Source: Polytrichum commune (lineage: Eukaryota > Streptophyta > Polytrichopsida > Polytrichales > Polytrichaceae). Taken from it: a DNA stretch of 64,000 nucleotides. A model generated the notes under the pieces. The model was not told the origin of the DNA. It saw nothing but the letters and a program-made list of their open reading frames with translations, and ran no database searches. The stretch lies in the NCBI GenBank assembly GCA_950295325.1, contig OX485806.1, positions 29,388,001-29,452,000 on the forward strand. Direction: 5' to 3'. Below, piece by piece: positions 5,160 through 22,017 of this stretch (within the stretch, counting starts at the first letter, position 1; every line of letters begins with the position of its first letter). A program made the position numbers and the translations under genes.

Positions 5160-5478
5160 AATGGCTACTTTTTCCGACTAGTCCACTTCTCCTAGGATAC
5201 GAAACACGTGATCAGTGCAAGATGGTTATTGAAATCCAAATCAAGGTTGTTGCCACTGTCCACATCATTTTGGAGCTCATATGAATATCTTATTCATTAT
5301 CAAAGTGAAGACTCTCGTGCTCATTAAATGATCCCCTATCTATGTCAACTATTGAACCTAGAATAGTTAACACATTTCGAGCACAAACTACAATCTCTTT
5401 CGAACACATGTCTCTTTGTATCTGTTCTTGGAACCACACCTAATCACACACCACTCAAATTATAAGTGTTCAATTAAG
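5160..5478 (+). repeat. Dispersed repeat, left half of a copy interrupted by the LINE
   Basis: This sequence has relatives at 39640-40021, at 40026-40375 (inverted) and at about 28380-28620. Shared landmarks are GGGCCTTAAATGG, CACTTCT...AGGAT, a stretch near TATGAATATCTTAT, TGCTCATTAA and CACACCTAATCACA. It stops at TGTTCAATTAAG, exactly where the LINE begins. Similarity to the 28.5-kb copy resumes after the LINE at 19217. Confidence 0.75.
5467..5478 (+). repeat. Left target-site duplication of the LINE
   Basis: TGTTCAATTAAG here is repeated exactly at 19205-19216. The two copies bracket a 13.7-kb segment containing every LINE feature. Confidence 0.75.
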
Positions 5479-7441
5479 GATTAGATGACGCCGTGAAGCT
5501 CCTACGCCCGGTGAGAGAGCTCGGTGCCGCCGAAACACAAAGGAGATCGGGTTGCTGGAGATGTGGCAACGGGAAGTAGTACAACGGATCTACAAGGGAT
5601 GAAGTATGCATAACCGCTCCTAAAAGTGTTGGCAATGCGGAGACCTGAATCTGATGCAGCTGGAGGCTCGCATTAGGAGCGTACATCTCTCTGATCCGAG
5701 TACAACTGATCGCTGCCACCCACCAGCTATTCGATCTCCGAAGTGCAGAAGCGCACACGAGCTCCTCCTCACCGAGCTTCCACTCAGCTGATTATAGTAC
5801 CACCGCCGCATGAAGGACGAACTCACAGGAGAAGCAACAAGCCACACCACCGCCGCATGAAGGACTAACTCACCGCAGACTCAACAAGCCACACACGGGA
5901 GCACAGAAACCGACCACCCAACATCAACAAAACACTCAAATCTGGATCTTGGAGACGCCCATATCAGAGCTCGAAGGAGAGCGGCACTACCACCCTCCGT
6001 CGCCCAGATCTCGGCTACACGAAAGTCCATCTCAACACCGCTACCCGATAAACAACCACAGTACCACGATCGGCCAGCAGCCCGAAATTCTACCCCTCCC
6101 CAGTACCGAAATACCACCGTCGGCAACAAACATCGCGTCAAAAAACTACACCGAGATCTCCAAAAACACAAAGGCCCTCCACAAGTATCAAACTATCTCC
6201 CCCATACTTTGTTCCAGTTTTGTGAAACCATCGTTGCGTAATAGCTGTGATAGTATTTAGTGAAGTTGCTCATCGGTGTGGAATGCTTCGGGAATAATTG
6301 TAGACAGTTTCCGAAGTCCATACACTCTGTCCATACACTCGAGTCCATACACTCTGTCTGCGAGTTCTACACTTGAACCCAGCTTATCAGGGGCCTCACG
6401 AGGATATATCTTAAGGGTCAATTAATCCCTCTACGTGTCTGTTTCAGATCTTAGGACCTTCCGTTTTATGCATGCTTAATTCATACCTTAGGAACTTCCG
6501 TTTTCTGCATATCTGATTAAGATTCTAAGAACTTCCGTTGAAGCTGTGCTGGTAGTCCGAGGAGTTGCCTATCTGCAGGATCTTCAAACCAACACCGAAC
6601 TCCTAAGCGTTGCTCTACTCCACCAAAGAGTGCTCTCCCACCGAGGAAACCACCGAGATCTCCATTCGAACCCCGCCCTGCCTTCGCCGATACCCACACA
6701 ATGACCTGCAAGCTACAGCGAAGTACTAATCCACCCAACACAGAGATCTCGCCAACATCAGCAACACCGAGATCTTCACTCGGACCCCGCCATAACCTCG
6801 AAGATATCAACAAAGTGACCTTCACGACTGCACCGAAGTCCTACTCCAATCAACACCGAGATCCCACCTCCGCCAACAACACCGAGATTGCTGCCCGAAC
6901 CCAGTAACGCGTCACAAATCGAGGTCTCCACTACGAAACATCCACCTCAAACTCAATATTGCAGCCTCCGGCACCCAGCATGGAGCGGTCACACTACGAC
7001 TTCACCGAAAATCTCCGCTCCGAACTCACAACGACATCAGAGTGAGTGAACAAAGCCACCGAAACCATACTCCGAGAATCACACTCCCGGTCACCGCAAT
7101 CACTGGTCTGTCACCGAAGTTCGACTGTCCTACACCAAGATCTCACCCTCGCAAACAGCACCGGACTCTCAACTTCGAAACCAGTACCAGAGGTCTACAT
7201 TCGAAACTGAACCACACCGAACCTAAGCATCGAAGCAACCAGATCGACACCGAGACCAGCTCCTGACCCCAGAACAATTGCTCCGACGGCATTCGACTAC
7301 AAACCCAGCATTACAGGTAAGTTCTCTAAACCATACCACCACTCCACAAACACAAAAAATAGGAACATTGTCTTATGTGCTTTAGCTCAACAACATGGCA
7401 TAACTCATAACAAGGCAATACACAAACTTAAACACCTCCTT
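5479..7441 (+). repeat. LINE 5' leader with degenerate tandem motifs
   Basis: The region repeats a core close to CAACACCGAGATCTC many times at irregular 40-70 base spacing (for example near 6148, 6652, 6740, 6766, 6856, 6880). It also has three nearby copies of CCATACACTC (6321-6356) and three of TTAGGAACTTCCGTT or close variants (about 6450-6540). No ORF here is convincing. Tandem motifs in 5' UTRs are common in LINEs and often act as promoters; that role is inferred. Confidence 0.65.
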
Positions 7442-9373
7442 ATGAGAAACTACATATTGTGTAAAATCCATAACCAAACACAAGAAAGCTTGAATCTCCT
7501 CTACAAAGCCCGATTGCACGCGCAAGAAGGAGGAGGAGACAAAAGTACCACCCTAAAAAACCACCTAACCACTAACAAACGTTGTAGTCAACAGATGGCG
7601 AATAGAGGCAAAGCGGTACACGACGCCATCATGAAGAGCCCCATCGATACCAACATGGAAGACACGGAAGACACAATGGTGATTGAATCCATTCAAACTA
7701 AGAGAGCACAAGAGTCCAAGAAAGGAAGTAGCTCAAGCAAGCGAAAGAAGAATGCGGAGCTCGAAACCGGATTGAAGGACACACCAAAAGAATTTTGGCT
7801 TGGCATTGTGGCTATGGAGAAACTTGCCATAGATGAAGGAGTGAAAGCCAAAGATTGTAGGCCATCGATGAAGAAGGAGGACCTCATCAAGACGGGCATA
7901 TCGGAGGGAGAAGCCGAAGAGATGAGCCACCTTTTTAAGATAGCATTTCCGCATGTAAGGCAATTACTCTACCCACTTGAGAGACCGGATGGGAAAGGTG
8001 GACAACACTTTAACTTGACCCAACTACCCATTGAGACGGAAGTGGATCCCGGCACCGGTCTCTCCTTCGACTACCACGTAGCTGTCCACTTTGAAAGGCC
8101 TACAACGGACTACACCCACAATATGATACTCAACATGGCAACTACTAGGTTAGCACACATGAGCATTGCATTGGGTATAGGACTAGCGGAGCCAATTTAC
8201 ATTCCATGCAAGGAAAAGGAAAAAAATAGCAAAATCAAATATTGGACGGGGACCATAAAAATCCACCTCAAAAATCCCAAGGTAGATGGCCTTGGCATGC
8301 TTAAAGGGCTACGCCCTTTCATCCTAACACTAGACAATGTCCAAACTCTAGGGAAGGTTTGCAAGTGTTATGACTCGATAGCTAGAAACACTCTACTTTC
8401 TACGAAAATCGAGAATCCTAAGCTATACCTCATCTCATCGAGTGAGCTTCAAAGGGATGTCTTACTTGAGAGTTTTAGACGAGGGTATGATTATGAAATA
8501 GCTAGCGTACAAAAAGTAAAAGAGGAAACTTGGGGATGGCTTATTTCAACTACGCCAACCCAAGCAAATAGGATCATCCAATATCTTGTACCCTATAAAC
8601 AAGAACTAATGCACGTCATCACACCACAAGCCGCCAAAGCGGAAAGAAGGAGCCGGGGAGAAGGACTCACGGAAGAAGAAATTAAAAAGAAAAATGCCAC
8701 TATGCTATGCCTCTATGGTCTCCATAAAATGAAGAAAATTGAGGATACAAAGGACTCAATCAAAGCGGTCCTAGGAGGACTAAATGTTGCATCCTTTTAT
8801 TTCCCGGGGCAAGTAAGAGACCTACACAAAGGCACGGCAAACGTTCAATGCCTTAACGCCATTGTCTATAGACAATGGGTAGGCAAAACCGTAGAGATTT
8901 TTGGCAAGCATGTGAGCTTTGCCCCTCACCCAAAAAGCTTGCAAGGAGCAATCCCACCCACAAAGGAAGAACAAGAAAAGCTTGGATTTTGCGACATAAC
9001 CACGGCCATTGCGGATACACTTGAAGCAACCCGCAATGCTCCACACCACAAAAGTAAAAATACCATGCTTACACATGACGACATCGATGCATTGGTAGAA
9101 ACCGCTTTGGACAAAAGAAGTGAAAAACTCATAATAGAGCTCAAAACCGAGCTTACAACGGAAATACACAAGGAAATAGGAGAGTTCAAAAAAGAAGTAT
9201 CATTGGAAGCCGATGTTCGCGAAGAGAGAATCACTAGAAACTTGACCTCCCACGTCAAACTACAACTCGAAGAAATCCGGAAACAACTTGCAATTACCTC
9301 ACAAGCGGTAAACATGACAACAAAGGCACTTGATTCCATTCTAACTCCAACACAACCTCAATTGGAAAACTAG
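7442..9373 (+). CDS. LINE ORF1 protein, intact
   Basis: This is an uninterrupted 643-codon frame ending in TAG. The more likely start is the ATG at 7595 (MANRGKAVHDAIMK, about 592 residues), because the first 50 codons look like leader. A basic Ser/Lys-rich patch (KKGSSSSKRKKN) near residue 95 could be a nuclear signal. A globular middle section (about 150-520) has no motif I can name. The last 90 residues are charged and heptad-like (about 560-625), suggesting a coiled coil for oligomerisation, as in many LINE ORF1 RNA-binding proteins. Base composition is far less skewed than in the following ORFs, and no stop or frameshift is present although ORF2 is broken. The ORF1 role is inferred from position and shape. 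Confidence 0.75.
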   Translation: MRNYILCKIHNQTQESLNLLYKARLHAQEGGGDKSTTLKNHLTTNKRCSQQMANRGKAVHDAIMKSPIDTNMEDTEDTMVIESIQTKRAQESKKGSSSSKRKKNAELETGLKDTPKEFWLGIVAMEKLAIDEGVKAKDCRPSMKKEDLIKTGISEGEAEEMSHLFKIAFPHVRQLLYPLERPDGKGGQHFNLTQLPIETEVDPGTGLSFDYHVAVHFERPTTDYTHNMILNMATTRLAHMSIALGIGLAEPIYIPCKEKEKNSKIKYWTGTIKIHLKNPKVDGLGMLKGLRPFILTLDNVQTLGKVCKCYDSIARNTLLSTKIENPKLYLISSSELQRDVLLESFRRGYDYEIASVQKVKEETWGWLISTTPTQANRIIQYLVPYKQELMHVITPQAAKAERRSRGEGLTEEEIKKKNATMLCLYGLHKMKKIEDTKDSIKAVLGGLNVASFYFPGQVRDLHKGTANVQCLNAIVYRQWVGKTVEIFGKHVSFAPHPKSLQGAIPPTKEEQEKLGFCDITTAIADTLEATRNAPHHKSKNTMLTHDDIDALVETALDKRSEKLIIELKTELTTEIHKEIGEFKKEVSLEADVREERITRNLTSHVKLQLEEIRKQLAITSQAVNMTTKALDSILTPTQPQLEN

Positions 9374-9408
9374 AATGGACAAACAATCATATAACCTACC
9401 CAATAAAA

Positions 9409-10440
9409 ATGTGTATTCACACAAAAACAAAAGTAAAAAACAAAAGAAAAATGAATGTAAAACCAATAGCATTTGGAAATGCTAAACAAATAATAATAAT
9501 AACCACACCAAATAAAACTAAAGCATTTCTAAATGCTCTCACACAAACCCATAAACTAAAACAAAAATACCAACAAAACCACCTCCAAAACCTAAACATA
9601 CTACACAAAGCAAAAAAACATAACCAACAAACCATAAAAACAAAAACAACACACCCAAATACACACAACACCAAAACTAACACCACAAAACCCAATCCTC
9701 ACACAAATAGATACAAAGCAAAGAAAAACACACAAGGAAAAAACAAAAATCTAAACAAAATAAATCCAAAACAAGCTCGGCCTACCGGCCTCGCCCAAAG
9801 AGAAAACAAAAACAAAAACCCAATAACAAAGATCACACAAAACACAAACCCAAGCCCAAAAACACTTAAACAAACAAATCTCAACACCATACTTACAAAG
9901 AAATATAAAACAAACACACCATACATAATTAGAACATACGCAAGTAACAAAACCAAAACAACAAAACACATAACCAAACACAAAAACACAACCATCACAC
10001 CCCCTTATAAAATATTCCAAACAAAAAGAAAGACTAAAAACTTAAACCAACTACATGCCCACAAGCATTACACACTTACACATACACTCATATACCAAAC
10101 AAATCAAAAACACCACAAAAACCTAAATAAAACAACCATCGAAAATAATAAACACACACAATGTACGCAAATAGGACCCCACCCCATAACATACCCACCA
10201 CACCCCCTACCTATGCTATATGAAGATATTAAGATAGATACAATGACCCGACAAAAACCCAAAATACTCATACAAGTAACAAACCCAAAAAGCCTAAAAC
10301 AAACAAAAACAAACAAAATCCCCCAAGCAAGGAAACACCCTTCAAAACTAACACACAAACACAACAAAACCCAAAAACAAAACAAAATCCTAAACAAACA
10401 CAAAAGTATACACACAAAAACAAAAAACATAATAATATAA
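9409..10440 (+). CDS. Low-complexity K/T/N/Q/H-rich ORF between ORF1 and ORF2
   Basis: An ATG-initiated frame of 343 codons, almost entirely Lys, Thr, Asn, Gln, His and Pro. The frame is open from 9334, so it overlaps the end of ORF1 by 40 bases in the -1 frame. It encodes ARPTGLAQ at 9775-9798, the protein reading of a GC-rich motif that recurs at 11456. Because the plus strand is very poor in G and fairly poor in T, stop codons are rare and long frames can arise by chance. Coding status is therefore doubtful. No domain is recognised. Confidence 0.35.
   Translation: MCIHTKTKVKNKRKMNVKPIAFGNAKQIIIITTPNKTKAFLNALTQTHKLKQKYQQNHLQNLNILHKAKKHNQQTIKTKTTHPNTHNTKTNTTKPNPHTNRYKAKKNTQGKNKNLNKINPKQARPTGLAQRENKNKNPITKITQNTNPSPKTLKQTNLNTILTKKYKTNTPYIIRTYASNKTKTTKHITKHKNTTITPPYKIFQTKRKTKNLNQLHAHKHYTLTHTLIYQTNQKHHKNLNKTTIENNKHTQCTQIGPHPITYPPHPLPMLYEDIKIDTMTRQKPKILIQVTNPKSLKQTKTNKIPQARKHPSKLTHKHNKTQKQNKILNKHKSIHTKTKNIII
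9774..9799 (+). repeat. 26-bp GC-rich motif, copy 1
   Basis: AGCTCGGCCTACCGGCCTCG plus CCCAAA stands out in an otherwise A/C-only background and is repeated base for base at 11456-11481. It contains GGCC-TACC-GGCC, which can pair on itself. Confidence 0.85.
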
Positions 10441-11690
10441 GAACACTTTCTAATATCTCCCGACTAACAAAAGACAAAACAACATACAAAAATCCAAACC
10501 AAGAGGCACATAACCCCAACAAATCACGAACAAAAGTAAGGAAAATATCAAATTACCCTATTAAACCCCCCAACATATACATAAAATCAAAAACGTTAAA
10601 AACACATAGATCAAAACAACAAACTCATACAACCTACACTACACCAATAATTTCCACATACCCCCATAATAGCGCATTCTCTCCAAAAAATACTCTAAAA
10701 ACAAACAAACACAAGCATCAATACCAAACACAAATAATCAACAAACACAACCAAAAAAATGCTCATCCTTCCGACCTCGCCCAAAAAACAACAACCAACA
10801 TAAGAACAAGACAAATTAGAAAAAACCCATTTAAAACCACACATGCCTACAAACAAACAAATAAAAGAGCCACAAACCAACCAAATCACACAACAACCAT
10901 AGACTATACAAAACACTGTAATAGAAAGCCACACCCAATCCACATAGAGAGGGGTAATCCTCATACAACTCAAACACTCTCCTTAAACCAACTACTAATT
11001 CTGAAACAATATATTACAAACAACAACAGAAAAAGTATACACCCTCACAACAATCACAACACATACAAAAAATCAATAAAATCACACAATAAATCCACAA
11101 CCACACATTTCCACAAACAAACATCCAAAAACATAAAAAATAATAAAGACAAACTATGTTCTAAAACCTACAAACAAACACCAACCAAAACAAAATATGC
11201 AACCACACCCACACCACACAACAACCCTACAAACAAACAACGCAAACAAATAATACCACGCACAACACGCTCCCAAAAACCTATATACAAATATAACATA
11301 CCAAAACAATATATAACAATAAAGAAACAAAAAAAGAACACCCACACCACCCCTGAAACAACATACCACAAAAGCACCCCAACATTATCAAATAACACCC
11401 CCAAACTCTACAATGACAAAACACAGCATATAAAACACAAAAACTACCTAAACCGAGCTCGGCCTACCGGCCTCGCCCAAAATCAAAATATTAATACTAA
11501 TAAGATTAAGATAAATAATCAACACAAATATACACAAACACAAAACAAAACCACTAAAAAACCAAGATTTACAACAAATTCAAACCCCAAAAAGAATAAT
11601 ATAAATATAATAAACAATAAACAAATATACTCAAACTACAAAGAGACAAAACCTCTCCTCATAACTCAACTATTCTCCCCACACATACTA
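10233..11690 (+). other. Open low-complexity frame leading without a stop into the 2A motif
   Basis: The frame of ORF2 is open upstream of its first ATG as far back as the TAA at 10230-10232. I read about 485 codons with no Met, rich in Lys, Asn, Thr, Gln and His. It lies in the -1 frame relative to the 9409-10440 ORF and overlaps it by about 200 bases. It contains HPSDLAQ near 10764 and RARPTGLAQ near 11454. Without an ATG it could only be translated by frameshifting or read-in from upstream. It could equally be composition-driven open sequence. Confidence 0.45.
11456..11481 (+). repeat. 26-bp GC-rich motif, copy 2
   Basis: Identical to 9774-9799, about 1.68 kb downstream and in a different reading phase of the element. 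A decayed third relative (CCTTCCGACCTCGCCCAAAA) is at about 10767-10786. Identity here against diverged surroundings suggests a conserved cis element or a recent copying event. Confidence 0.85.
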
Positions 11691-11729
11691 TTACTACTTA
11701 GCGGGGACATTGAAACCAACCCAGGACCC
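11691..11729 (+). other. 2A-like ribosome-skipping motif (LLLSGDIETNPGP)
   Basis: The codons read LLLSGDIETNPGP, immediately followed by the Met of ORF2. This is an exact fit to the 2A/CHYSEL core D-(V/I)-E-x-N-P-G-P, preceded by a Leu-rich run typical of active 2A peptides. Such motifs make the ribosome skip the last Gly-Pro bond and release two proteins from one frame. They are known from viruses and from some non-LTR retrotransposons (for example trypanosome L1Tc/ingi). The location, at the junction between a low-complexity leader and the enzymatic polyprotein, fits that use. Activity is inferred. Confidence 0.85.
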
Positions 11730-12365
11730 ATGCCCAATATCCTACAGACACACCCATCTGCACATAAAAACAGATGTAAAAAATACTTTATAGAATGCAC
11801 AATCAAATTACAACCTGAATACCAACATTTAGCAAAACAATTCTCTCCAATCATAAATATAACACACACACAACATCAAGACACAATTATAGACTACCCA
11901 TTTCTGTCAAGATATATATACAAAAACATACACCACCCACCTCCACGCATACTATACGCACTTATTACCACAATCAGCCCAGTTATAGAAGCATGTAACC
12001 ACATATTAAGACAAACCCCAAAACCAGATTGGACAACAACAGTCTTAGAACGTATGGCCTTACTCCAAAACCCACCCGAAAGACACATCACAACCACACA
12101 CCCCTACACAAATTTTTTACAAACAAACCAAGATATTATCAACCCCCCCAACACCATCCATAAAGAAATATACAACTTTATAAAACAAAGTAACGAACCA
12201 CTAACCATACAAATAATGACAGACAAGTTTCCTTACCTACCAATAACACTACTCACAGAAGCATTAAAATGCAAAGAACCAATACACGAATACTCCCACC
12301 CCCCACCACTACCCCCCACACCCGCAATAAACCCCCAAATAACCCATACAACAAATCACAACACA

Positions 12366-13130
12366 CACATAATCACATGGAACGCCTCATCACTAAACAC
12401 AGCCTTACCAAACCTCTACCAACTAATATCAAAAACACTACACAATCCTGCAATAATTATGATACAAGAAACCAAACTAACTGCAACAAAATCCACAAAA
12501 TACCTACAAAGATTATTTCCCACATACAAGTTAATATTTAACAACACTCATGCATTAACAAGGTGTATACAACAAAGAATACCATATACACCTGCAAGAG
12601 GTGGACTCCTTACACTCATAAACAAAACATATGCATACCCCGGCAACATTACCAAAATCCCCACTCCAGCCGCAATCTCTCCGTATCTACAAATAATTGT
12701 AATAAACAACCAGCCATTACAACCATGGCTGATAATACATATCTACATGCCATCACACGAAGAAGATATAAGACTCATACCAATAATAAAACAAAACATA
12801 ACACAACAAATTACTAACTACACAAACCATATACACATACTATGTGGAGACTTCAACAGAGACATAGCCTTAATTGGACGACAAAACGAATATACCACAA
12901 CACCACCACAGGTAGAAGATATAGAATGGCGTACATTTACGAATAACCTTCAACTCACATATATCCCAACAAATAGCTCATACTCTAGACAAGGTGGTCC
13001 AGACTATAATCAAACCAACCTGATAGATGGATATTATATTAAAACACCCAATAATACCCTATACACATCAACCACAAACAACACCCATAACCTAAACTCA
13101 GACCACTCCCCAGTAACACTCCATATACCT
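12366..13130 (+). other. APE-type (EEP) endonuclease domain of ORF2
   Basis: The domain opens with IITWNASSL and has the catalytic Glu in MIQETKL (about 12460), CGDFNRD at 12843-12863 and the terminal SDHSPV at 13098-13115. These are the standard N, E, D/N and DH positions of the exonuclease-endonuclease-phosphatase fold in LINEs. It is wholly open in this copy. Confidence 0.9.
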
Positions 13131-13949
13131 CCAAATACACTACTAGCCCGAAATATGCCACCAATAATAGATAAACCCCCAAGGATATTAAACCCTATCC
13201 CACATATAAATATTGAAAAATTCAAAACAGAATTCTTCGAAGAAAATGCACTCCAAATCAATGAACTTACACACACACTAAGCAACGACCAATGACAATC
13301 CTCTTGCACAAAACTAGACCACCTCATACAAAAAAATTCCGACAAAATCCAAGACACATGTAGCGCACCACCTCTCCCAGATCTCACAAATCGTACATCA
13401 CAACAAGGAGGTTTCCTACCAAGAAAACTCCAAAAAAAATGGAAAAACCATCTCTCCACCTACCATTTAATTAGGAAAGCCATATACACCATAAAAAACT
13501 CGCCAAACTGGCCAACACACCCTATAATTGAAGAGTTAAAAAACCATACCCAAACGGATATTCCACCCCCACCAAATCAAGACCCTACTCAATGGATAAA
13601 AACACTAGCCAATATAGCTAAAACTGCACATACGCATGCTCGGAACATTACCACGAAATACACCCAAGAATGTATCAAAAAAAACATATTAAAATATAAG
13701 TAATTATACGACAAAAGTCCAAAGAAAATAAATAATAAAGTCTTCAAAAGCCAAAAAACACCCCCATTTGACTACATCACAGACGAATACAACAATATAC
13801 TCACAAACCCTGAAGACATAGCTAATGAAATTCACAAACAACAATCAATCTGTAATAGACCCACAGTACCAACATGCTACCACCAAACAGAACACACATC
13901 CTACTGTACTTACGGAGTAAGACAATACCCATGGCATGACCTCGACAGA

Positions 13950-15200
13950 TTTGTCATAGATAAAAGAGGAAACCCACAAACCCCACTATCTGAATACTTT
14001 GACAGAGAAACATACAACACATGCCTAAAAAATCTAGCAACCAACAAAACACCCGGACCTGATAAAATTCCCAACACAATTCTAAAAAACATGCCTGAAA
14101 GCTTCCACAAATTACTATTTCTCTTATTATCTCATTGTTACAAACAAAAACAAATCCCAACATCGTGGAAAATAAGTCTAACAATATTATTATATAAAAA
14201 AGGAGACCCTTCAAAACTGACAAACCACAGATCAATCGCCCTCGCAAATACAATATATAAATTCTTTACAAGCACCCTAACATTCATACTATCAGCATAT
14301 GGTGAAAAACACCAAATCTTACACGACAGCCAAGAAAGGTTTAGAGCAGAAAGAAGCACATCTAGGCAACTCCAACTCCTCATAGCAGCACTAGAGGACG
14401 CACGATTCACAAATCAAGATATTTACCTACTATATATCGATTTCAAATACGCATTTGGCTCTCTCGACCACGCAAGACTACTTGTAATCACAAAAGATTT
14501 AGGATACCCTGAAGACGCGGTGTCCCTAATTGGCAACAATTACTCAAACTCCAAAACCATATTCACAGGAGAACACTTCGGAAAAACAAAACCCATACCA
14601 ATTCAAAGAGGTACAATACAAGGAGACACACTCAGCCCATACATCTTCTTATATTTTTGGAACCATTACTTCGATGGCTTCAAAAATGAAACAACAGCTA
14701 CACATTCGGTACATCTAAACTAACTATCAACTCAGCAGCATACGCAGACGATTTAGCAGCCATCACAAACAACCTTCAATCAATACAGACACAACTCAAC
14801 AAACTGGATAGATATTGTGACTGGGCTGGAATAGACTTGGGAGTACCCAAATGCGCCATTACTGGATGCCCAAACAAATCAAAAACAAAACCAGAAACAT
14901 TTAAAGCCAAAATACAAGCCCAAAACATCAATTACAGAAACCAACCACTACCTATTCTATACCAAAATGAACCATACGTATATCTAGGTATACAACTTGT
15001 ACCCTCACTAAAATGGAAACTACAAACACACATCACCACAACCAAAACGATAGAACAATGCAAACATCTAACAAACTGCCCAGCCACAATCAAACAAAAA
15101 ATAAGTATGGTCGATACTGTCATCAGAGCTGGTATAGCCTACAGCTTTTATGCAGTTTCATACTCACTACCAGCCATCAAAAAATTAGATAAAAAGATTA
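13950..15200 (+). other. Reverse transcriptase domain of ORF2 (broken)
   Basis: Conserved blocks in order: TPGPDKIP (about 14050), WKISLTILLYKKGDP and NHRSIAL (14165-14240), the first catalytic Asp in YIDFKYAFGSLDH (about 14435), QGDTLSP (about 14620), and YADD at 14741-14752 in the shifted frame. A one-base change near 14655 and TGA at 14687 separate the palm blocks. A thumb-like region continues in the frame 14837-15499. DFKxAFGSxDH is close to the form I associate with RandI-type elements. Confidence 0.9.
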
Positions 15201-15775
15201 TTGGAATCCAAAAAGCAATTTGCGGCTTACCTAAATGCACAGCAAACATAATAACCCAACTCCCACATGACCTATTTGGACTAGAAGCCTTCTCACTAAA
15301 GAACGCCTACCTAAGATGTATTAGCGAACAACTTAGAAACGCACTTAATGACACCGGGAGACTAGGAATAATCTACAAGGGACTCATACAACATATACTA
15401 GCAAAATACGGAGGTGCAGAAGACATACAAAGAATCAAATACCAAGACTGCATAAGATCACCCACAACACGAACATTATTCCTTATGAAAAAAGAATGAG
15501 GAACTCACCTCAAAAGTATAGAAGCAAACTTCCAACTCCACACGACAGAACTAGAACAAGAATGGAGGGCACATGTCACAAATGAACTCCCAGAATTAGA
15601 TACTGAACTATCTCTCAAACTACTACACAAACTCCTAACCCATAACATACAAAAGATAAAACATATTTCCCTTCCTAATGGCATGAACCTAATGTCGCCA
15701 AAAGACTTCCAAATCTACTACAAAACTCCGACAAAACTAGAAAAAAATGCACTGCGCATAGCAGAACAACTTTTC

Positions 15776-16190
15776 TGCCTTCAAAGTTGTAACAAAAACT
15801 GCCCAACCCCATGCAACAGACACCCACAAGCCCGCACACTCAAAACAAAATACATATCAGAAAATAGAGAAATAACACCTAGAATACCAACACACCCCCC
15901 ATCCCCACCAGAACAACCCCAACAACCCACCCCACCCTCACATATAAAAAACAATCCAATCAGATTCCCCATCCACACTATAGTAAATCACAAAACCAAA
16001 GACACAAAAGATCAATATAAAATAACAAAAACATATAACACATACTTATGCCAATGGACACTTCAAAACAACACAATCTACAACAAATGGATGCCACAAA
16101 ATGAACTATTCCCACTAAACCAACCTCCAGTCATCGAACACAATACTAAATTACTCAAAGAATACTACACGAGGCAACAACACAAATACT
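15776..16190 (+). other. Cys cluster and chromodomain-like segment of ORF2
   Basis: Residues 32-47 of the frame starting at 15683 have Cys at four-residue spacing (CLQSCNKNCPTPCNRH), a possible metal-binding site. After a Pro-rich linker, residues 94-162 have the spacing of a chromodomain: hydrophobic-xx-I near IHTIVNHK, a Y/L-C-Q-W core (TYLCQWTL), KWMPQNEL in the place of the usual W-E-P-xx-N/H-L, and a final helix ending YY. In retrotransposon integrases chromodomains direct insertion to marked chromatin. The match is by eye and moderate. Confidence 0.45.
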
Positions 16191-16582
16191 ACAATAAAAT
16201 CATAAATGAACATATTACCCCCACACAAACCAAAGACCCAAGATTCATCCCCCCACCCACGAGAATGCCACATATTCAAATATCAGTAATAGAATGCAAT
16301 CCAGAAAAAGACATCACTACCGTAAAAAACACTATACAAACACAAAATGAAATAACACACATATACGAAGATACAGGAAGACATCTCATCACCATCCCAA
16401 CCACAAGGCTCAAATGGCTTTGGCAACAATACAACAAAGACACCTATAACACACACGGTCTTGTACCTCCCCCACAACCATTCGAAACAGAAATAGTATG
16501 GCTATACCAAAGATATAAAACCAAAGCATCAACAAAAAATCCACTTAACTCATCGCAATACACCCTCCCACATAACCTCCTT

Positions 16583-17000
16583 GACTCCATTATCCAAACA
16601 TTTAACATCTCACATTCATACTTCTCCCCACCAGTAACATGTTCTACACACATAACAAAATTTTACTCTCCATTCGCAAGAGACAAAATCTTTGGATCAC
16701 TAGGCACCGCCTTTCAACACAAATGGAATGGAATAGGCTACGCACATCCGCACAATGAAGAAATGGCCCAGCAAGCAATACACTGGGCAAGACTAGCTGC
16801 CAAAAACGATCCAAACACCATTACACTACTAGTCACACCAGACGTTAACTGGTACCAAAACTACTCACCACTCACCGGACCATTCCCTGACACACATGTC
16901 CTAGCCCATTTTACCGCAGACACCATTACATATGACGAACCAACGACCCCCCAAAACATAAATAAACCAAGAATAGAACCACTAGCAATACACATCTTTT
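16583..17000 (+). other. Unassigned conserved-looking domain between chromo-like segment and RNase H
   Basis: This globular stretch contains FGSLGTAF, then WNGIGYAHPH, a helix (EEMAQQAIHWARLAAKND) and the strand TLLVTPDVNW. The order resembles a Rossmann-type methyltransferase with AHPH where N6-adenine methyltransferases have NPPF/DPPY. I do not claim activity. It could be a structural remnant or an unrelated fold. Confidence 0.3.
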
Positions 17001-17244
17001 GTATCCATCATCAAAACCAAGCCATTGGCACACCCGACCAAATAAACACAATCCAAACAACAATTGAAAACCTACAAATAACACAATATCACATACAAAA
17101 TGTTCCACCCACACCTCCAAACACACCCGTGAACAAAAATACTAAATGGAACAAACTACTTTACCCACCTCATACCAACCCATCAACCCCAAACATCCCA
17201 CCGTTACCAAACTATGAAATTTACACCACACTCAAATTCCCACC

Positions 17245-17700
17245 ACAATACAGTTACTACACAGACGGTTCGTTTATCCCACCTATAAAAGCTAATGATG
17301 GACACTGGAAGAAAGAAAAAGCTGGATACGGAATTTATAACCCAATAAAAGCAGACATACGTAAATCAAAAAGACTACCTGGTCTACAAACTTGCTTTAG
17401 GGCCGAACTAATGGCCATACATAAAACACTTAGACTAATTACCACCAGATACCCAAATGAACCTGCACATATATTCACGGACTGTCTCAATTGTATATAC
17501 GTACTCAACACACAAATAAAACACCCTACACACCATAACAACCATGCTGACAAAACCATATTAACATCTATGGTAGAAATGCTAAAAAGCCGAACACAAC
17601 TCACTACGATACACAAGGTGAAAGCACACACCAACATTGAAGGAAATGAACAAGCAGACCGACTAGCCAAACAAGGCACCAAAAAGAGATATAGATTTGC
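17245..17700 (+). other. RNase H domain of ORF2
   Basis: The acidic residues appear in the canonical order: Asp in YYTDGSF, Glu in CFRAELMAIH, Asp in FTDCLN and the late Asp in NEQADRLAKQG, with the conserved His of VKAHTNIEGN before it. This is a complete RNase HI set. RNase H next to the RT is known in R1, I, RandI/Dualen and some plant L1 elements. The segment is open in this copy. Confidence 0.9.
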
Positions 17701-18039
17701 AGTCAAATCATATGAATTCGCACACACCACACCATACTACTACCAAAAAGACACATGGCCAGGTCCAAATAAACGACCCGACAAAGGCCCCGTTAGATGC
17801 CTTCAAACATACATAACCAAACATGACCGAGATAACAACCTAAAAACACTATCGGAACAATTCCCCAACATTAATAAATGGACAATGAACCCTGATATAG
17901 ATAATGAACTATCCAACAACTTCTGGTCAAACCCTGCGATAACATACTCACAAAAAACATGCATACTTAAATTCCGAACGGGACAATATATGGGCAATGC
18001 CAGAAAATAACTATTATTTGGTATAGAAAGATTCCCATC

Positions 18040-18709
18040 AATCACATGTCCAATCTGTAACTCCTCCGATGTAGACACATGGCTACATGTATTATTAAAA
18101 TGCAATCAACACCATATACATGCCCTTAGAACCAAAAGACATAATAAAGCAGTATGGGAACTAAGAAAACTAATCTTATCATCACAAAAATCAAGATGCT
18201 ACATCCTCATGAACGCAGGGACATTCAACAATAACCCACAAGAGAATACAGTCCCCACATGGCTCCTACCATGTACATGTGCACAACAAAGATGCCACTG
18301 CAACGCTAGATTCAAACCTGACCTTCTATGTATTAAAGAATTTCCACACCAAAATACCCCACCAACACACCCAATAGACAACCTCACGATACAATTCATT
18401 GAATTCACATATACAAATGACAGATTCCCACAAGACACAATTAACAACAAAATCCAAAAATACCAACCACTAATCAATAACATCACGCGGCAAGGTTGGA
18501 AAATTGAACCACTTATTGTCACCACGGCTGGAGCCAGAGGAACCACACACGCCCCGTCAATGAAACAACTAGAACAAACATTTAAAATACCCGAAAATCT
18601 TACAAAAAATGCATTTAAAGAAATAAACACTATTGCCATACAATATGCTAGCTCAATCCTCCTACATAAAAGGCGTCTTGAAAACAACCAAACTGTACCA
18701 ATAGAATAA
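18040..18709 (+). other. Zinc knuckle and restriction-like endonuclease (RLE) domain of ORF2
   Basis: CPIC (about 18046) followed by WLHVLLKC gives a CCHC knuckle, as found just before the RLE of R2-like and Dualen elements. It is followed by FKPDLLCI, then IEFTYTND, then KIQKYQPL, the R/KPD...D/E...KxxKY series of PD-(D/E)xK endonucleases. A G-W-K-I-E-P-L-I strand, a Gly-rich turn (TAGARGTTH) and a terminal HKRRLE helix also fit RLE. With the APE domain upstream this gives two endonucleases on one polyprotein. The 18209-18709 part is uninterrupted. Confidence 0.75.
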
Positions 18710-18869
18710 TGATAAGTATAATACTAATAATGAAAGGATCCAATCTTATAAAACTATTTATTAATATGAACACCATAGCTCAGGAAGATGGGAAGGAGCC
18801 GGTTGGTTGGTAACAATTTTCCTGCCTTTAAATCACAGCAGCACCAAGTTATGTATAACACATTAAACG

Positions 18870-18985
18870 CTACGACGGACTCAACGGGAATCGAACCCGG
18901 ACCATCTAAAGTGTAAGTACAAACATCCTCCCGCAACCAACCGAGGAAACATGACTTGGCGACCACCAAACACACCAAACCACAT
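18870..18985 (-). repeat. tRNA-like / SINE-like segment in the LINE 3' tail
   Basis: On the minus strand, CCTCGGTTGGTTGCGGGAGG resembles the D arm/A box. About 50 bases later comes GGTTCGAATCCC, a perfect B box (T arm). The rest does not fold into a full cloverleaf that I can confirm, and there is no acceptor-stem pairing, so I do not call a tRNA gene. It is most simply a tRNA-derived SINE inserted in, or forming part of, the LINE tail. Confidence 0.5.
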
Positions 18986-19204
18986 CTTATACCTTAAACA
19001 CAACGAAACCTCTTACTAATAGCTACGGTGGGCTACTTTTACTTGTTCTCTAGTCACTATAGTGTCCATCCCCGAAAGGGGAGAGTAGTATTGTCTCAAT
19101 TTCCCATTGTCTGGTAGGCAGTGGGTCATTTGACAATACGAACGGACACTTCATTCACGCCGGCCCCTCTCAGGGACCGGAGTTTCTATCAATCTTTCTA
19201 TCTA

Positions 19205-19216
19205 TGTTCAATTAAG
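19205..19216 (+). repeat. Right target-site duplication of the LINE
   Basis: This is an exact 12-base copy of 5467-5478. The bases that follow (AGAAGTAACCGAATTAGG) align with AAGAAGTAACTGAAATAGG at about 28584-28602, inside an uninterrupted copy of the same host repeat. This is the right half of the split target. Confidence 0.75.
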
Positions 19217-20199: not shown

Positions 20200-21396
20200 T
20201 GTTTCCTGTCATCAGCAATTATCGTTGCAGATGCTTCTACAGAGATATTATCATAACAAAGGCTCGAGTATACCCATGAGCATCATCCCCTTAAAATTAC
20301 ATGAGAGTTTGTAGTTCAGCGGGATAGCGACTGCCCTGGGAACTGGGGAAGAATGTGTACAATTGTCAAGTTGCCTCGGGGACTGACAATAATGAGTGGA
20401 GAAAGTCACACTGTATTGATAACATGGGGCAGATCATGTCATCCTGACTTGAATTGTATTATATATCCCCTGTGGCTGGTATTGCTACAATGCCTCAACG
20501 GTTTGGTTGCTACCGGTTGACTAATGACTTCTGTGCATAACCACTTGTTTTCTTTCATCGGCAAATTTCATTGCAGATGCTCCTACTGAGAGATAATCAT
20601 ACAACGCCTCAAGTAGACCCATGAGCATACCTTCAATGTTCGTTGAATTCCATGATTGCCCGTAATTCAGCGGCACAGTGATAGGTCTAGAAATTGGGGA
20701 AGGCTCTGTACAATCATTGGGTTGCCTTGGTGATCAAAAACATATAGTGGGGAAAAATCACTCTGTTTTGATGACAGGGGGCAGACTATCATCATGTTAT
20801 TCTAGTTTTAACTGCAATATAGAGCACCTTCTGCCTAGTAATGCTCACAATGCCGCAATGACTGGTTGGTACCTGTTGATTACTTTTGTGCATAACCACA
20901 TGTGTTCTGTTTTTGGCTATTTTTTATTGCAGATGTGACTACTGAGACAAAATCATACAAGGGCTCAAGGAGTTGCATAAGCATTCCATTGATATTTGTT
21001 TGAATTTCATGTGTGCCTATGATTCAGTGGCACAGTGATAGCCTAAGAAATTGGGAAGCATGTGTATAATAATTGTGGGGTTGTCTTGGGGATTAATAAC
21101 GTTTAGTGGAGAAAATCACTCCGTTATGATGACATGTGGCAGACTATTATGATGTCATTCTAGAAAAAATTGTATCATATAGAACCTGGTGCCTGGTAAT
21201 GCTTACAATGCCTCAATGATTGGTTGCTACCGGTTGATTAATGACTTCTGAGCATAACCTCATGTATTTTGTTAACGGCAAATGTTGTTGCAGTTGCAAC
21301 TACTGCGGGATTATCATACAAAGGCTGGAAGAGACCCATGAGCATCAATTTAATGCTTTTGAATTTTATGAGTGTCTGTAATTCAGCAGCATAGTG
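20200..21396 (+). repeat. Three degenerate tandem copies of the COMMD3 5' exon edge
   Basis: A unit of about 355 bases occurs three times ahead of the gene. Anchors close to AAATTGGGGAAG sit at 20341, 20691 and 21048, and in the real gene at 21407. Each unit contains a TTGCAG acceptor-like end, the leader, the first roughly 20 codons of COMMD3, then intron-like sequence. The start codon is lost in every extra copy (ACT, ATA, ATA) and kept only in the gene, so the copies are non-coding. Confidence 0.75.
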
Positions 21397-22017
21397 ATGG
21401 CCCTGGAAATTGGGGAAGAATGTGTACAGTCGTTGGGATGCCTCGGGGACCGAAGCGACAGTGAGCTTGAAGCCCTCGCACGAGCAGTGAACTCGGTCCT
21501 GGTGGACTCGCAACGTGAAGATGTTGCCCTAAATTCTCCAGTTCTGGAGAAAATGGATGTGGATTTGATCAAGACAGCCTATTCTGCCCTCATCTGCCTC
21601 TTTGTAGAAGCAGCCAAGAACAACGTGTCCGAGAAATCAGTGGTGATGTTCTTGCGGAGCGAGTGTGGCGTGCCAGAACCTCAGGGGAAGCTGGTGGCGG
21701 AGGTTTTTGAGAGCAAGAAGGAGGCTCTACGAAGAGTGATGTCTCGAACCGGGAATTGGAGCTCGATTCCACGACTTGTGGGAGTGGATTGGCGCCTGGA
21801 ATATCGTGTTTTATCAAGCACGGAAATCCAGGACCACCCGCCACGAGAGCTTCTTTACCACTGTGCCATGAAGACGGCTGAGAAACAGATGGTAACATTG
21901 GATGGGGAAACAGATGGAAAGATTGATTTCGTTTGTAGTGTGGAGCAGCTCCAGGATCTGGTGTCCACCTTGAAAGATGCTTGCAAGGCGGTTGAAAGGG
22001 TTGTTCATCAAGGGTGA
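21397..22017 (+). CDS. COMMD3: COMM domain-containing protein 3
   Basis: A 206-residue single-exon coding region, close to the roughly 195 residues of animal COMMD3. The N-terminal HN half runs from ECVQSLGCL through LNSPVLEKMDVDLIKTAYSA. The C-terminal COMM domain begins near VGVDWRLEYRV (Trp-Arg-Leu-x-Tyr is diagnostic) and ends with IDFVCSVEQLQDLVSTLKDA, very like the animal protein's end. COMMD proteins form a hetero-decameric ring in the Commander complex, which recycles membrane cargo from endosomes. The ATG at 21397 is preferred over the GTG at 21394. The TTGCAG just upstream suggests a leader intron. Confidence 0.85.
   Translation: MALEIGEECVQSLGCLGDRSDSELEALARAVNSVLVDSQREDVALNSPVLEKMDVDLIKTAYSALICLFVEAAKNNVSEKSVVMFLRSECGVPEPQGKLVAEVFESKKEALRRVMSRTGNWSSIPRLVGVDWRLEYRVLSSTEIQDHPPRELLYHCAMKTAEKQMVTLDGETDGKIDFVCSVEQLQDLVSTLKDACKAVERVVHQG

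Follow-up and report, generated by a model that had tools for sequence, protein, structure and literature searches.

A Full-Length but Broken Two-Gene LINE Fitting the Dualen/RandI Type in a Probable Land-Plant Genome

Introduction

Long interspersed nuclear elements (LINEs) fall into two kinds, one cutting DNA by means of an R2-type nuclease and the other by means of an apurinic/apyrimidinic endonuclease (APE), and elements with both nucleases are a natural place to ask what role each one has and how one replaces the other. R2, which targets 28S genes, is not known to have an APE or a ribonuclease H (RNase H), L1 is not known to have an R2-type restriction-like endonuclease (RLE), and Dualen includes a cysteine protease domain, which is not a defining feature. 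Dualen/RandI elements are described as joining APE, RLE, reverse transcriptase (RT), and RNase H in one element (PMC4640811, PMC3636483) and as ending in a microsatellite-like repeat, not poly(A); the table that gives the RandI tails, (ATT)n and (CTATTT)n, places RandI under green algae only (PMC3747384). The listing of a 2015 survey is likewise confined to green algae (PMC4438587), LINE/Dualen was annotated in cryptophytes in 2025 (PMC12747079), and a literature search for Dualen and RandI, with Repbase outside its scope, found no land-plant report among the papers listed. Here we describe a 13.7-kb element in a stretch of 64,000 nucleotides (the window; contig OX485806.1, positions 29,388,001 to 29,452,000). 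With a probability of roughly 0.85, it is a full-length but broken two-gene LINE fitting Dualen/RandI in a likely land-plant genome, whose second open reading frame (ORF2) encodes an APE, an RT, and an R2-type RLE predicted to nick DNA and copy RNA.

Enzyme Domains of ORF2

The element and the predicted domains and defects of ORF2 in the window copy are as follows.

5479..19204, + strand: whole element, 13,726 bp, bounded by duplications, with the same layout in other copies
12372..13115, + strand: APE-type endonuclease; PF03372 (E 3.7e-7), PF14529 (1.3e-5, under the curated cut-off); motifs WNASS, QETK, YMPS, GDFN, SDH
14199..14752, + strand: RT core with YADD; PF00078 (E 5.6e-14)
16475..16828, + strand: PCIF1-like methyltransferase domain; PF12237 (E 8e-9); HPHN where PCIF1 has NPPF
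17249..17680, + strand: RNase H; PF00075 (E 1.2e-14); RNase H1 structures 1.7e-5
18011..18706, + strand: CCHC knuckle, RHN, and PD-(D/E)xK RLE; KPD at 18314, IEF at 18398, KIQKY at 18449
13293..13703, + strand: in-frame defects TGA (13293) and TAA (13701)
near 14690, + strand: frameshift within the RT core
15497..15499, + strand: in-frame TGA
18008..18010, + strand: in-frame TAA directly ahead of the RLE module

An initial annotation had proposed a dual-endonuclease LINE of this type from motifs, all of which lie on the + strand: GDFNRD (12846), SDHSPV (13098), YADD (14741), YTDGS (17258), FRAEL (17396), TDC (17477), ADRLAK (17654), and CPIC (18047), followed by the three RLE motifs at the positions listed. 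Pfam bears out its assignment of APE, RT, and RNase H to ORF2 (PF03372, PF00078, and PF00075); it was silent on the breaks in ORF2, on ORF1, on a 2A sequence, and on the PCIF1-like domain.

The restriction-like endonuclease proposed for the C-terminal region is also borne out, with an RLE fold detected by profile search and R2 the best match, far better than the others in both fold and sequence. The profile did better than the window piece alone, for which a PDB sequence search returned one unrelated match at 0.73 and which matches no Pfam RLE model; the APE piece found nothing in the PDB at 0.01. Weak Pfam matches of the RLE piece to capSnatchArena (0.026–0.051) were rejected as reflecting the common PD-(D/E)xK fold and no kinship. 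A chromodomain-like stretch seen by eye at about 15965–16180 has no Pfam match, and no claim is made for it.

Relatives and the RT Tree

A search with read-through ORF2 residues 660–2280 returned 50 proteins, 21 of which stand out (E ≤1.3e-65); three of these carry an organism name, in each case Haematococcus lacustris. The RLE module is present in 18 of the 21, and precomputed annotation places PF12237 in 11. Pfam scans of six close relatives gave the order APE, RT, PCIF1-type domain, and RNase H, with some parts missing in some of them. A protease lies ahead of the APE in three of eight close relatives scanned (Josephin in P0015 and P0003 [below cut-off]; C48 in P0008), an OTU-like stretch was seen by eye in P0002, and P0012 and P0018 have neither a protease nor a PCIF1-type domain by Pfam. 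Pfam likewise found no protease in the N-terminal region of ORF2 in the window or in the copy at C1:40.94 Mb, one of six other genomic copies that were read.

The RT tree comprised 55 rows: the window, one other genome copy, relatives P0002–P0021, the more distant rows P0022–P0050, and three R2 sequences and one L1 (8c8j) from the PDB; P0001 was left out, most of its RT being missing. The window falls in a clade of 22 rows (support 99/99) with the other genome copy and with Haematococcus and metagenomic relatives of like domain set. The R2 rows lie elsewhere, with P0027 among them, and the single L1 reference elsewhere again. The presence of the RLE fold and an RT lying apart from the one L1 reference run counter to the refuting condition set in the initial annotation (RT grouping inside plant L1 with no RLE fold), and its reading is supported.

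A separate query with the C-terminal region returned 86 proteins. One of them, P0132, is a fragment 69% identical to the element that is filed in a Candidatus Nitrosocosmicus archaeal metagenome bin; it is most likely a stray eukaryotic contig.

The 3′ End

19060..19204, + strand: 3′ end with a conserved RNA of predicted fold, a terminal GGCC hairpin, and a (CTAT)n-type tail

Of 30 loci, 13 could be aligned over their last 140 bases, the window among them, and the RNAalifold consensus contains 36 pairs. Because just three of these show changes on both sides and several are broken in one to three rows, the predicted fold is only moderately supported. Tails of the (CTAT)n type end all seven copies read, the window included, so that none has the poly(A) end usual for flowering-plant L1; (A)n closes 224 of the 233 flowering-plant L1 families in a published listing, in which green-algal L1 often ends otherwise (PMC3747384).

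The tail bears on whether the element is an ordinary plant L1 whose C-terminal CPxC and KPD are the usual zinc-binding tail or a chance occurrence. APE and RNase H are reported from plant L1 as well (PMC4640811), and the lack of a Pfam RLE model for the window piece, along with weak zf-RVT matches in 3 of 15 members of the RLE alignment (best 0.021), would suit such an origin. Against it stand the match of the RLE to R2, an RT profile that scores 1.7e-50 with R2 and 1.8e-35 with L1 in the PDB, the 99/99 clade apart from the L1 reference, and the (CTAT)n tail itself. This explanation is already largely refuted and retains hardly any credibility; the evidence favors a Dualen/RandI-type element.

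By eye, a tRNA B-box-like stretch seems to lie in the 3′ untranslated region on the – strand at about 18900, inside an inverted repeat (ccggttggttg/caaccaaccg, 18780–18960). ARAGORN called no tRNA, and Rfam matched nothing on the element up to E 0.1.

Borders, Genomic Copies, and Selection

5467..5478, + strand: 5′ target-site duplication TGTTCAATTAAG, 12 bp, identical to 19205–19216
19205..19216, + strand: 3′ target-site duplication TGTTCAATTAAG, exact 12-bp repeat of 5467–5478
5479..7594, + strand: 5′ untranslated region, mostly absent from the six other copies read

The borders given in the initial annotation (5479 and 19204) proved exact, with TGTTCAATTAAG flanking both ends of the 13.7-kb element; the best matches at 200 control positions had a 95% point of 10 and a maximum of 12 bp. 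Clear duplications were found in four of the seven copies: three measure 12 bp and one 13 bp, and the count takes in two bases also present in the tail in two cases and one such base in a third; over all copies, 200 control positions each gave best matches of 10–11 at the 95% point and 12–15 at most. The remaining three comprise one copy whose 11-bp match stands at a distance of 5 bp from the tail, one with matches of chance length only, and one with none, whose 5′ end may fall outside the stretch examined. At the 5′ end of the element, no blastn match of more than 150 bases starts ahead of about base 1968 in five of the six other copies, and the sole blastn match of the sixth (C1:40.94 Mb) starts at base 6193.

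The assembly comprises 407.8 Mb in 64 contigs. The RLE piece has at least 150 matches in it (69–100% identity, listed from 5,283 first-look candidates) and ORF1 at least 70, both counts being lower bounds. Six of the 150 listed RLE matches sit in open frames of 2,625–2,924 codons. The one such copy that was read, at C1:40.94 Mb, holds the N-terminal region, 2A, APE, YADD, TDGS, RHN, and PD in a single frame of 2,919 codons, and a Pfam scan of codons 1–2,139 gave APE at 1.1e-5 and RT at 2.1e-27.

Ratios of nonsynonymous to synonymous substitution (dN/dS) over 21 non-independent pairs from the seven copies, some with saturated dS (>1), average 0.19 for APE, 0.12 for RT, 0.23 for the PCIF1-type domain, 0.16 for RNase H, and 0.12 for the CCHC-RLE module; the single-pair maxima are 0.44, 0.60, 1.29, 1.12, and 0.28, respectively. 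These values bear on the suggestion that only one nuclease works and that the RLE or the APE is a relic, as would be the case if RLE elements were giving way to APE elements. Both domains retain their motifs, the RLE module persists in 18 of 21 relatives, the means for APE and RLE are comparable to that for RT, and neither nuclease evolves in the fashion of a relic. A Dualen-type LINE with a single working nuclease is therefore unlikely, and an element with two maintained nucleases is preferred.

The N-Terminal Region of ORF2 and a Predicted 2A Sequence

9409..10437, + strand: pre-2A region, first part; rich in K, N, T, and Q; in the window copy its frame differs from that of the second part
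10233..11702, + strand: pre-2A region, second part; lacks an in-frame ATG; contains copies 2 and 3 of a RARPTGLAQ-type motif
11703..11729, + strand: 2A (StopGo) core GDIETNPGP, abutting the ATG at 11730

The apparent spacer at 9374–11729 was considered as non-coding, a reading that was dropped since its open runs of 499 and 354 codons exceed those of every shuffle: the maximum was 188 for the whole spacer and, for the shorter run, 211 in 9374–10440 (500 dinucleotide shuffles each). Because both runs top all shuffles, the 2A sequence is placed within a coding frame, and in the C1:40.94-Mb copy the whole pre-2A region is a single frame. The RARPTGLAQ-type motif occurs three times in the window (9755, 10741, and 11437), each time in the open frame, and more often in a copy at C1:0.74 Mb, with variable, low-complexity surroundings rich in K, N, T, and Q; Pfam found nothing in the window pre-2A region. 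Upstream of its intact 2A, the C1:0.74-Mb copy also has a second, degenerate 2A-like stretch (SKDTETNLGPM), which apparently arose when a repeat module was duplicated.

Within the core, DIETNPGP fits the published consensus (D/G/C/N)(V/I)ExNPGP (PMC12846837). GDIETNPGP has 43 exact sites in the genome and none in a reversed control; an ATG follows at all 43, as the search pattern, which also fixed the residues, demanded. Its coding sequence occurs in 26 DNA versions, which vary at synonymous positions, and it is present in six of the seven copies read. Three Haematococcus relatives have a 2A-like core; the other 18 close relatives, some of them truncated, have none by that pattern.

Alternatively, GDIETNPGP might not work as a 2A, with ORF2 made as one long protein or started at ATG 11730. 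The ATG after the motif at every listed site (which the search required) and the variable, low-complexity upstream region speak for this. The fit to the functional consensus (PMC12846837), the constancy of nine residues over 26 DNA versions and in like form in Haematococcus, and an upstream frame that stays open for 1.5 kb and is continuous in the C1:40.94-Mb copy make it unlikely, and a working 2A is the preferred reading.

The coding strand of ORF2 (9374–18700) has a composition bias, a strong depletion in G: 9374–11729 has 5% G, and in 2-kb steps the GC skew falls as low as –0.67.

The PCIF1-Like Domain

PCIF1 is the cap m6Am methyltransferase. A profile built from the window sequence together with those of six relatives matches PCIF1 structures 6irv and 6irx (E 1e-11). 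At the position of the PCIF1 motif NPPF, four of five distant relatives aligned have NPEY and the fifth HPTY, P0001 has HPHS, and the window has HPHN; among 196 proteins, the same spot reads YAHPHN in 24, YAHPHT in four, four other YAHPxx variants once each, and YAAPSS once. Because this motif is changed, catalysis by the domain is probably altered or lost.

Two relatives in the same RT clade, P0011 and P0019, have a C5 cytosine DNA methylase (PF00145) besides the PCIF1-type domain, and P0019 also has a PHD finger; PF00145 was confirmed by Pfam scan in P0011 and comes from precomputed annotation in P0019.

ORF1 and the Flank

7595..9373, + strand: ORF1, an open frame of 592 codons from the conserved MANRGKAVH, with a predicted C-terminal coiled coil

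An upstream ATG at 7442 would lengthen ORF1 to 643 codons (7442–9373). Its 60 homologues fall at 76–93% identity (46) and 35–51% (14). The structure model is of low confidence (pLDDT 52) and too poor for a structure search. Ahead of the start, at 7480–7545, a stretch LLYKAxLHAQxGGGD is conserved in several homologues, and similar stretches recur once more upstream in P0057 and upstream also in P0059; an RNA element or an ORF1 that starts further upstream may account for it.

Behind the element, 20256–21453 contains direct repeats of 136-, 92-, and 30-nt units at spacings of about 350 and 717. A COMM-domain protein exon (PF07258, PF21672) at 21382–22017 on the + strand overlaps one of the repeat copies.

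Host Genome

The host is likely a land plant, because of a gene with PMR5N and PC-Esterase domains in the window and because of the build of the genome, in which seven chromosome-size contigs account for about 406 of 408 Mb and all seven carry copies of the element. A set of seven chromosomes would be in keeping with a moss such as Polytrichum. The close relatives with organism names are from Haematococcus, as might be expected if the window came from a green alga or a contaminant; given the PMR5N/PC-Esterase gene, the seven chromosome-size contigs, and the copies on all seven, such an origin is very unlikely, and a land-plant host is retained.

Proposed Mechanism and Significance

A single RNA likely carries ORF1 and ORF2, which lie in that order. 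ORF2 is probably reached by reinitiation; from the ORF1 stop to its first in-frame ATG the distance is 35 nt in the window and 104 nt in the C1:40.94-Mb copy. At GDIETNPGP, a conserved sequence, ribosomes likely skip one peptide bond, which would free a lysine-rich N-terminal protein of about 500–800 residues from an APE-RT-PCIF1-like-RNase H-RLE enzyme. The RT would recognize the conserved 3′ end, with its predicted fold and (CTAT)n tail. Lying behind the RT as in R2, the RLE likely makes the first nick, from which reverse transcription is primed. Cleavage of the second strand is likely the task of the APE and would produce the duplications of about 10–13 bp, and RNase H would remove the RNA. 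Selection maintains the PCIF1-like domain even though its catalytic motif is altered, and the domain more likely serves in binding than in methylation.

Several points weigh against this account. The window copy's ORF2 is broken, and activity of its parts is predicted from sequence and fold. The RT tree had one L1 reference and no row labelled Dualen. Target duplications are clear in just four of seven copies; one of the seven lacks the 2A, which also occurs in just 3 of 21 close relatives (several truncated). The window N-terminal region has no protease by Pfam, unlike several relatives. The dN/dS pairs are non-independent and partly saturated, with single pairs reaching 1.29, and which of the two nicks comes first is conjectural.

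At its boldest, the reading would be that a large Dualen lineage with recent activity resides in land plants and uses natural 2A skipping to make two products, a RARPTGLAQ protein built of repeats and an enzyme of five domains, with the R2-type nuclease cutting the first strand and APE the second, a captured PCIF1-type fold serving as a binding module, and both ancestral nucleases kept because each cuts one strand. This combination is tentative, and we would place it somewhat short of even odds.

Because the lineage is present in many copies, several of them with an intact ORF2 frame, in what is likely a land plant, the dual-nuclease question becomes testable in another kind of host. The captured PCIF1-like domain is of interest for its role inside a retrotransposon. 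The element would also provide a naturally occurring 2A within what is likely a gene of a plant; a 2026 survey states that 2A works in plants and found plant viruses making no natural use of it (PMC12846837).

Comparison with Known Elements

The window element has the Dualen/RandI features of a non-LTR (long terminal repeat) RT, an APE N-terminal and an RLE C-terminal of it, and an RNase H, and it shares the microsatellite-like 3′ repeat, not poly(A), described for that group (PMC3747384). It differs in lacking a detectable Josephin or C48 protease (Pfam), in its likely land-plant host, its own ORF1 family, its G-poor coding strand, a 2A inside ORF2 (common to the Haematococcus relatives), and a PCIF1-like domain with HPHN, where four of five distant rows aligned have NPEY. 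With L1 it has APE and RT in common, and with plant L1 also RNase H (PMC4640811); its RT lies outside L1 in the tree (one L1 reference). As regards R2 elements, the copies read show four different target duplications, and the RT is outside the R2 clade.

Some APE-type LINEs of animals and trypanosomes likewise bear a 2A, close to where their APE-RT polypeptide begins. They belong to a different LINE group, and here about 500–800 residues stand ahead of the 2A. The likeness to PCIF1 is one of domain homology (profile E 1e-11), with NPPF replaced by NPEY, HPTY, HPHN, or HPHS.

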